Positions 7,030-24,317 of a stretch of 64,000 nt of DNA are shown here, one piece after another. Position numbers and translations under genes: made by a program. The notes under the pieces are model-generated. The model did no database searches. It was not told where the DNA came from and saw nothing but the letters and a program-made list of their open reading frames with translations. The stretch is from Stenotrophomonas sp. 169. GTDB taxonomy: Bacteria; Pseudomonadota; Gammaproteobacteria; Xanthomonadales; Xanthomonadaceae. The stretch is from contig NZ_CP061204.1 of NCBI RefSeq assembly GCF_014621775.1, positions 1,570,501 to 1,634,500 on the forward strand, read 5' to 3'. How positions within the stretch are numbered: the stretch's first letter is position 1; each line of letters begins with the position of its first letter.

Positions 7030-7106
7030 TGCGGGGTGGAGCAGTCTGGCAGCTCGTCGGGCTCATAACCCGAAGGTCGCAGGTTCAAATCCTGCCCCCG
7101 CTACCA
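7030..7106 (+). tRNA. Initiator tRNA-fMet (CAT), copy 1
   Basis: A 77-base cloverleaf with encoded CCA. The anticodon loop reads CTCATAA (CAT). The anticodon stem ends in three consecutive G-C pairs (GGG/CCC), the mark of initiator tRNA. Positions 1 and 72 are both T, so the top acceptor pair is open, as required for formylation and initiator use; the E. coli gene has C-A there. The whole gene is identical to the copy at 7777. Confidence 0.97.
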
Positions 7107-7188: not shown

Positions 7189-7231
<43 letters not shown>

Positions 7232-7259
7232 TCAAAAGCTGCAGGGCTGCTGGTTGGGC

Positions 7260-7377
7260 GGGACGGGGTGGGTTGGCGGGGGACGGCAAGGGCCGCATCC
7301 ATGCGGGCCTCGTTTCGCGCCATCCATGGCGCTCAACGCCCCCGCCAACCCACCCCGTCCCACCTTCGACAGGTTCC
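7260..7377 (-). repeat. Large hairpin element A with two GGA-loop hairpins (minus orientation)
   Basis: Two perfect 23-base arms (7260-7282 and 7339-7361) enclose a 56-base loop. Read on the minus strand the loop holds two small hairpins, 7317-7332 (GCGCCA, loop UGGA, UGGCGC) and 7293-7306 (CCGCA, loop UGGA, UGCGG). GGAACCTGTC, also found before element B, lies just outside the arm at 7368-7377. Its loop half 7309-7338 is the reverse complement of part of element B at 7566-7595. There is no credible protein. It is probably a structured RNA or a mobile palindrome; function unknown. Confidence 0.75.
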
Positions 7378-7412
7378 TGGTGGCCATGGAGCCTTTGGCG
7401 TGCGCCACATCC

Positions 7413-7489
7413 GTAGCGCCGACCCGTGGTCGGCGGATGTTGAAGGGGAGGGGGTCTGATGGTTTCCGCCGAGCATGGCTCGGCGCTAC
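7413..7489. repeat. Pair of SMAG palindromes facing each other
   Basis: GTAGCGCCGACCCGTGGTCGGCGG at 7413-7436 (given here as one palindromic unit) is followed by an inverted unit at 7466-7489 that ends in CTAC. They form a head-to-head dimer of the GTAG-bordered REP class known from Stenotrophomonas (SMAG). Confidence 0.85.
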
Positions 7490-7526
7490 CGCTTTTTTTC
7501 TTTTTTCATACGCGGCGGGCGGCCAC

Positions 7527-7648
7527 GGAACCTGTCAGGGGCCGGGCGGTGGGGCTGGGCGGGGGCGTTGAGCGCCATGGATGGCGCGAAACGAGCGCTA
7601 CATGGACGTACTCGTGCGCGTCCCCCGCGCAGCCCCACCGCCCGGCCC
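7527..7648 (+). repeat. Large hairpin element B with two GGA-loop hairpins
   Basis: Arms of 27 bases (7539-7565 and 7622-7648) pair at 26 positions and enclose a 56-base loop. Inner hairpin 1 is 7572-7587 (GCGCCA, UGGA, UGGCGC). Inner hairpin 2 is 7591-7615, with outer pairing ACGAG/CTCGT and TAC/GTA around the loop AUGGAC. GGAACCTGTC lies at 7527-7536, and a T-rich tract (7491-7508) precedes the element as it does element C. The arms differ in sequence from elements A and C but still pair. Confidence 0.78.
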
Positions 7649-7736
7649 GGCCCGAGCTCCGGCTTCGCAGCAGCCAGCCGCGAGGGGGTTTCCACCCGTT
7701 CGACCACCCAAACCAACAGGAAAAGCTGAGCGGGGG

Positions 7737-7776: not shown

Positions 7777-7853
7777 TGCGGGGTGGAGCAGTCTGGCAGC
7801 TCGTCGGGCTCATAACCCGAAGGTCGCAGGTTCAAATCCTGCCCCCGCTACCA
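7777..7853 (+). tRNA. Initiator tRNA-fMet (CAT), copy 2
   Basis: Identical over all 77 bases to the copy at 7030, including the GGG/CCC anticodon stem, the open T1-T72 position and the encoded CCA. Its own promoter and terminator are visible, so both copies look functional. Confidence 0.97.
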
Positions 7854-24070: not shown

Positions 24071-24109
24071 AGCGGGCAGGCATCTGCTTTGCCCGCTTTT
24101 CTTTTTTTC
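24071..24109 (+). terminator. Second, strong terminator after infC
   Basis: AGCGGGCA (24071-24078) pairs with TGCCCGCT (24090-24097) and is followed by TTTCTTTTTTTC. The T-rich tract continues into hairpin element C. Confidence 0.85.
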
Positions 24110-24128: not shown

Positions 24129-24250
24129 GGAAACCGTCAGCGGGCCGGGCGGGGCAGGTTGCACGGGGCCCTTGGAGCCCCGGACGGGCGGAAAGGAGCT
24201 TACATGGACGTACTTGCAGCGTGCCCCGTGCAGCCTGCCCCGTCCGGCCC
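24129..24250 (+). repeat. Large hairpin element C with two GGA-loop hairpins
   Basis: Arms of 28 bases (24142-24169 and 24223-24250) pair at 26 positions plus two G-T pairs, enclosing 53 bases. Inner hairpins are GCCC-CGGAC-GGGC (24177-24189) and TAC-ATGGAC-GTA (24201-24212). GGAAACCGTC at 24129-24138 corresponds to GGAACCTGTC beside elements A and B. As in B, a T-rich tract precedes it and GAGGGGGT...CACCCGTTCG follows (24282-24302). The element sits between the infC terminators and the rpmI promoter. Confidence 0.78.
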
Positions 24251-24317
24251 AGCCCCGGCAACCGCGTTGCATGCGTCGGCGCGAGGGGGTGTCACCCGTT
24301 CGCTGACATCAATCGCG

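Follow-up and report, generated by a model that had tools for sequence, protein, structure and literature searches.

The window, that is, the whole 64-kb stretch of DNA that was analysed, lies within a single 4.157-Mb contig and carries three long hairpins, here termed elements A, B and C. A and B lie on opposite strands on either side of an inverted REP pair, which we named for its GTAG end, SMAG being a GTAG family of REPs (PMC3733652). C lies downstream of infC. The features are as follows.

7257..7364, minus strand: element A, outer stem-loop (arms 7257-7282/7339-7364, 96% complementary; loop of 56 nt)
7317..7332, minus strand: first inner hairpin of A, loop CATGGATG (sequence; covariation)
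7293..7306, minus strand: second inner hairpin of A, loop CATGGATG (sequence; covariation)
7365..7377, minus strand: conserved box of A, GGAACCTGTCGAA, preceding the 5' arm (sequence, printed copies)
7413..7489: SMAG-type (GTAG) REP inverted pair between A and B (arms 7413-7437/7465-7489; GTAG end)
7493..7506, plus strand: T-rich run 3' of the REP pair, terminator-like on this strand (sequence)
7526..7538, plus strand: conserved box of B, CGGAACCTGTCAG (sequence, printed copies)
7539..7648, plus strand: element B, outer stem-loop (arms 7539-7565/7622-7648, 96% complementary; loop of 56 nt)
7572..7587, plus strand: first inner hairpin of B, CATGGATG at 7576-7583 (sequence; covariation)
7599..7610, plus strand: second inner hairpin of B, TACATGGACGTA, with CATGGACG at 7601-7608 (sequence; covariation)
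7679..7702, plus strand: 3' tail of B, CGCGAGGGGG...CCCGTTCG, a short imperfect hairpin common to many printed copies
24072..24109, plus strand: terminator-like hairpin and T-run 5' of element C (sequence)
24142..24250, plus strand: element C, outer stem-loop (arms 24142-24169/24223-24250, 93% complementary; loop of 53 nt)
24177..24189, plus strand: first inner hairpin of C, CGGA loop (sequence)
24201..24212, plus strand: second inner hairpin of C, TACATGGACGTA, with CATGGACG at 24203-24210 (sequence; the motif is the core motif of alignment A2, described below)
24280..24302, plus strand: 3' tail of C, motif as 3' of B (sequence)

The first-pass annotation had described A, B and C as long hairpins on one plan, and this is confirmed by arms that are 93-96% complementary around loops of 53-56 nt (the arms of A came out at 23 nt in a second measurement). 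It was also correct that all six inner loops contain GGA, but they divide into five of the form AUGGA(U/C) and one CGGA, not into four and one as stated. UACA...GGA had been cited as the consensus; the loops fit better to CANGGAYG, which is given as the RsmA consensus in PMC7705225 and PMC9308961. Strict CANGGAYG loops number two in A, two in B and one in C, the remaining loop of C being CGGA.

Two types of unit are found among the printed copies. Type 1, represented by B, runs from a REP pair through a T-rich run, the box GGAACCTGTC, an outer arm, the loop and the second arm to the tail CGCGAGGGGG..CCCGTTCG. Type 2, represented by A, has different arms, no T-run and a TTGCCG-like hexamer array behind it. 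We note a GGCAAC hexamer array of 7.8 copies at 7189-7235, and GTTGCC-like arrays trail several printed type-2 elements. The block formed by A, the REP pair and B is flanked by two very similar tRNA genes (7030-7103 and 7777-7850; anticodon CAT by eye), each of which is followed by a similar hairpin with a T-run. The terminator-like hairpin 5' of C gives a partial match to the Rfam family L20_leader of 22.8 bits against a cut-off of 58.7.

Two covariance models were used to look for further copies. R1 was built from 48 copies, with A, B and C among its training rows, and R2 from alignment A2, which contains no sequence of this genome. The elements score 142.3 (A), 134.4 (B) and 88.2 bits (C) with R1, for which all three are training rows, and 46.2, 53.9 and 66.0 bits, respectively, with R2, for which C is the best of the three. 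Over the 64-kb window at E <= 10, R2 returned just three places, which are the three elements themselves, each on its GGA strand. A BLAST search with B gave 104 rows, some of which are hairpins matching their own opposite arm, and one with C gave 35. With R1 the whole genome gave at least 127 rows in at least 104 distinct places from the best 150 of 3156 candidates scored; after removal of 20 half-elements and one partial match, at least 83 (about 83) full copies were retained, divided between the strands as 41 plus and 42 minus. R2 found 32 places in the genome, of which R1 had already given 30; the other two are at 164818 and 2560432. What had been presented as a family of three members is therefore far larger, and the proposed search by covariance model in this and related genomes found many further copies.

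R1 matches of about 42-57 bits were considered as possible copies lacking GGA and were rejected as such, since 20 of the 22 places of this or otherwise weak kind are half-elements. These are joined at the palindrome of the first hairpin to another module, and many retain GGA loops; they are the result of mosaic recombination at that palindrome. In L023, L027, L052 and others the partner is always one module, CACGGTTTGCGAAGC...GTGGACC, and in L027 a unit of roughly 316 bp is repeated.

A scan of GTDB genomes for the core of the second hairpin gave at least 120 stretches, of which 80 were analysed for arms, strand and neighbours and the other 40 for loop counts. The 80 named stretches come from Xanthomonas, Stenotrophomonas, Pseudomonas, Halopseudomonas, Cellvibrio, Shewanella, Rheinheimera, Marinobacter, Luteimonas, Lysobacter and others. 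A mechanical search found outer arms, a few of them odd, in 97 of their 108 core sites and none at the Shewanella core site. The fold is common to Xanthomonas, Halopseudomonas, Cellvibrio, Marinobacter, Luteimonas and others, with arm sequences that differ between genera; many of the 97 armed sites are related Xanthomonas copies. In other Stenotrophomonas genomes the plan is retained on stems of quite different sequence. At least 35 of 185 genomes of the class match R2 at E 1e-3 (own genome included; at most 26 best candidates scored per genome). R1 matches at least 22 of 41 genomes, again including this one, with per-genome counts that vary among species of the genus from 0 to at least 83. 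A search of plasmids, phages and E. coli genomes with an 81-nt core taken from one relative (L136) gave no match.

The paired-loop pattern CATGGAYGN{8,30}CANGGAYG occurs 61 times in this genome against two for the reversed control. It has a match in 186 of 198 genomes of the family sample (maximum 249), where the reversed control gives 0 to 6 per genome, so that the many genomes with one to five matches overlap the control range. Of 229 genomes in the class sample, 152 contain the pattern, in most cases only a few times. The highest count among the 198 family genomes is that of G196, with 249 matches against 0 in the control.

In the common plan, a long outer stem whose sequence is almost free to vary leads into a three-way junction and two hairpins with CANGGAYG loops; in the core set (A2) the outer stem is closed by GAC/GUC. 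The folding z-scores of A, B and C are -7.3 to -7.8, and all of 200 shuffles fold less well. For B, the z-score of the reverse complement is -7.4, equal to that of the forward strand, and stability thus does not indicate the strand. In the free minimum-energy RNA folds, A retains both inner hairpins, while B and C each have one inner hairpin displaced by rival pairings.

The covariation that the first-pass annotation had seen in the arms proved to be strong in both alignments. In alignment A1, which consists of the copies of this genome, the covariation score is 0.326, compared with 0.128 for shuffled and at most 0.078 for slid alignments, and 22 of 33 pairs have changed on both sides against a shuffled mean of 12.2 (none of 500 shuffles reaches 22). 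Alignment A2 comprises 37 non-redundant sites left after sites without arms, of odd loop length or with arms more than 75% similar were dropped; four rows are from Stenotrophomonas maltophilia (L182, L183 twice and L204) and 33 from other genera. Here the score is 0.659, whereas shuffled alignments give 0.147 and slid ones no more than 0.123; paired cells make up 94.7% (67.9% after shuffling), and 240 cells have changed on both sides (65.9 after shuffling). Taken alone, the number of A2 pairs changed on both sides (18 of 26) does not stand out from the shuffled alignments, which average 16.4 and attain 18 in 44 of 500 cases. In the first hairpin, which is absent from the scan pattern, all seven pairs vary on both sides. 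The junction bases GAC, GAGC and GCGUGUC are invariant in all 37 rows, but GAGC and GCGUGUC form part of the scan pattern, which leaves GAC and the first loop as the only unbiased features. We also note a YTYR linker 3' of the second hairpin: in 107 of 107 core sites (L152-L231) its first Y is matched by the complementary base at R (C..G or T..A). This spans only two bases and may reflect two lineages rather than pairing.

The first loop of A2, absent from the scan pattern, matches CANGGAYG strictly in 28 of 37 rows; the nine others, as printed, still contain GGA. Any of the four bases may stand at the N of the second loop. The loop most often seen is AUGGAY, and its second position can also be G, A or C. 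Among the 97 armed elements of other genomes, many of them related Xanthomonas copies, 86 have two CANGGAYG loops and 11 have one; the remaining 40 stretches contribute 44 armed sites out of 53, 41 with two such loops and three with one. The sets from this genome (80 elements) and from other Stenotrophomonas (51) were pre-filtered for two GGA or TCC, so that the presence of two GGA in 80 of 80 is true by construction and is not used. Within these sets, two strict CANGGAYG loops are found in 51 of the 80 elements and one in 29, and in other Stenotrophomonas two are found in 43, one in six and none in two. It had been expected that GGA would be kept wherever the arms are kept. This is nearly so, but in the copy at 2358295 of this genome (G000:C1:2358295) the first GGA is lost with the arms intact, and in a Halopseudomonas copy (L160) the first loop is inverted. 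By sequence, the repeat as a rule presents two CANGGAYG hairpin loops, two being the least number of sites that we take to mark an RsmA/CsrA-binding RNA. One csrA match is found in this genome.

At gathering scores, Rfam reports only five tRNAs in the window and no family at A, B or C; likewise, no family reaches the gathering cut-off at 18 loci of other genomes. Matches at relaxed thresholds were rejected as chance hairpin matches, mostly to microRNA families. The repeat is thus a large, strongly covarying structured family that is not recognised by the Rfam copy used, and no earlier name for such a repeat was found in the titles and abstract starts of the open-licence literature. The closest known family is TwoAYGGAY (RF01731), which at E <= 10 gives at least eight matches in this genome, all of those listed being these elements on the same strand. 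The best score, 25.2 against a cut-off of 43 bits, falls short of membership; among 14 control genomes one has matches, also below the cut-off. As tabulated in PMC2864571, TwoAYGGAY resembles the repeat in having an outer stem and two hairpins with AYGGAY-like loops; the repeat differs from it in being multi-copy and in having long free arms and a conserved three-way junction. TwoAYGGAY was predicted to bind CsrA by Gardner and Eldai (PMC4333381), which provides a precedent for a possible function of the repeat.

The sponge RNAs RsmX/Y/Z, RsmV and CsrB share GGA hairpin loops and the CANGGAYG consensus with the repeat, RsmV being described with four CANGGAYG-type sites (PMC9308961). They are, however, single-locus genes, whereas the repeat occurs as dispersed copies with two predicted sites each. 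A CsrB/RsmYZ-type sRNA gene would occupy a single conserved locus; with at least 83 dispersed places the elements are not the CsrB/RsmZ-type RNA that had been suggested. SMAG/GTAG REPs and BIMEs are likewise interspersed and intergenic, but REPs are palindromes of 20-40 bp with a GTAG end (PMC3733652), whereas the repeat is about 110 nt long, has an internal junction and lacks the GTAG. The SMAG-like pairs adjoin the 110-nt hairpin. ERIC-type repeats, which are intergenic palindromes of roughly 130 bp present in many copies, also resemble the repeat; they are not known to have paired conserved GGA loops.

In this genome, 68 of the 80 elements have a SMAG-like GTAG end no more than 250 nt away. 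The same is true of only eight of the 97 elements of other genomes, which indicates that the core does not depend on SMAG. Of 16 neighbour pairs less than 700 nt apart in this genome, 14 run minus then plus (head-to-head). The C site was the sole one compared with relatives: in 22 of these (15 of the genus and seven of the order) neither R1 nor R2 finds an element there, although a very divergent copy could escape, and the nearest relative carries unrelated sequence. C therefore shows presence and absence, without a clean empty site or a duplication. The repeat is accordingly both multi-copy and variably present at an orthologous site, as expected of a mobile repeat, the latter at one site, C. 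The earlier alternative of a non-autonomous mobile palindrome or large REP variant thus also fits an interspersed repeat that here lies mostly beside SMAG-type REPs.

Orientation relative to genes was counted with gene calls from a home-made codon scorer. In this genome, where 60 of 80 elements could be placed, 18 tandem sites are sense and 14 antisense, with 21 convergent and seven divergent; 46 of 73 elements have an antisense gene as their 3' neighbour. In other genomes (64 of 97 placed; 11 overlap a predicted gene and 22 have no neighbour) 26 tandem sites are sense and 15 antisense (p 0.12), with 20 convergent and three divergent. A run of T4 or longer lies within 70 nt upstream of 52 of the 80 elements of this genome, so that many could be transcribed by read-through only; in other genomes a T5 run lies within 60 nt upstream of eight of 97.

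Read on the GGA strand, G.U mismatches outnumber A.C mismatches by 52 to 5 in the 80 elements of this genome, by 34 to 4 in 51 elements collected by BLAST and by 46 to 6 in other genomes (43 non-redundant arms). In 50 other Stenotrophomonas elements the excess falls short of significance (21 to 10; p 0.07). The 53 SMAG pairs intended as a control are also skewed (25 to 7), and the G.U excess is therefore not specific to the elements. It could arise from a strand-specific mutation bias or from an effect on single-stranded DNA.

The repeat is a family with a defined fold and strand, with conserved loops and with a multi-copy presence that differs between species. That it is a real, widely distributed and strongly covarying RNA-like family is well supported. 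In our view, RsmA/CsrA binding is a plausible and the best functional reading: two RsmA-type loops are usually kept while most other letters change, which suggests that the repeat may serve as a dispersed decoy or docking site. To the following reading, taken as a whole, we assign a rough probability of one half. A, B and C, as copies of an interspersed repeat widespread in Gammaproteobacteria, would encode an RNA-like module with predicted RsmA/CsrA sites. A transcript of an element would arise from a promoter or by read-through of the REP or terminator hairpin that precedes it; its long stem would protect the RNA and present the two loops to an RsmA/CsrA dimer. Each copy would then be a local docking site, and dozens of copies together would constitute a dispersed RsmA titrator with a possible effect on host transcripts. 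In Stenotrophomonas the repeat would have spread as a composite with REP-type repeats.

In favour of the RsmA/CsrA reading we count the loop conservation, the covariation, the excess of the paired-loop pattern, the R2 matches on the GGA strand, the G.U excess, the csrA match and the TwoAYGGAY matches on the same strand. Against it we count the 29 of 80 elements with a single CANGGAYG, the A2 pair count that shuffles can match, the non-significant G.U excess in other Stenotrophomonas elements, the skewed SMAG control, the equal folding of the two strands and the inner hairpin that is disturbed in the free folds of B and C. The near-neutral gene orientation in this genome and the frequent T-runs directly upstream argue against a simple sponge. 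The RsmA/CsrA interpretation of the first-pass annotation is thus partly supported, with binding and transcription putative.

The main rival to RsmA binding is a role of single-stranded DNA in the spread of the repeat, and both could hold together. Taken by itself, a non-autonomous REP-like palindrome whose folded single strand is recognised by a transposase such as RAYT, with stems and GGA loops kept for that enzyme and no RNA function, seems to us possible but doubtful. It would account for match counts that range from 0 to at least 83 within the genus, for the absence of C at the same site in 22 relatives, for the GTAG ends beside 68 of 80 elements, and for the head-to-head pairs and the nearly neutral orientation. 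A paper on RAYTs (PMC2817692) reportedly mentions Stenotrophomonas and Xanthomonas, which we count on the same side. The mobile palindrome does less well with a core that is common to many families on unrelated arms, with variable loop positions that coincide with the variable positions of the RsmA consensus and with the near absence of SMAG-like ends (8/97) elsewhere; moreover, the C site, the only one compared, showed no target duplication, the nearest relative carrying unrelated sequence there.

The placement of the elements relative to genes could instead point to an RNA-processing or transcript-end element, in which the stem protects 3' ends or stops read-through between convergent genes; the GGA loops would then be bound by some protein that is not RsmA, or by no protein at all. 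Of 64 placed elements of other genomes, 46 follow a co-directional gene (several copies share a locus) and only three lie between divergent genes, and REPs are reported mainly downstream of genes (PMC3733652). A simple stem, however, needs neither two conserved hexaloops nor invariant junction bases, and we regard this explanation as distinctly unlikely. The nearly perfect outer arms, freely different between genera, might also result solely from correction of palindromes during replication, with no selection on structure; this leaves unexplained why CANGGAYG is kept on different stems and why the three-way junction is conserved, and we consider it highly improbable.

A stronger form of the RsmA/CsrA reading, which we put forward as a speculation with the odds well against it, is that an unnamed RNA repeat in many families of Gammaproteobacteria would set the level of free RsmA/CsrA, its expansion retuning a global post-transcriptional network. 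In that case tens to more than 100 copies would act together in some genomes. If RsmA/CsrA were bound, the amount of free regulator in Stenotrophomonas, Xanthomonas and other genera would depend on a dispersed repeat besides a few sRNAs. A global regulon would then be coupled to the expansion of that repeat, whose copy number differs widely between species, and these repeated hairpins would gain a concrete role at the RNA level. Even without a role for RsmA, the covariance models make the family easy to annotate and to test. We finally note a different double-CANGGAYG form in other gammaproteobacteria (L145 and L146), which consists of a hairpin, a TTATGCCGTG-like linker and a second hairpin and is located 3' of a hairpin with a T-run that resembles an intrinsic terminator.
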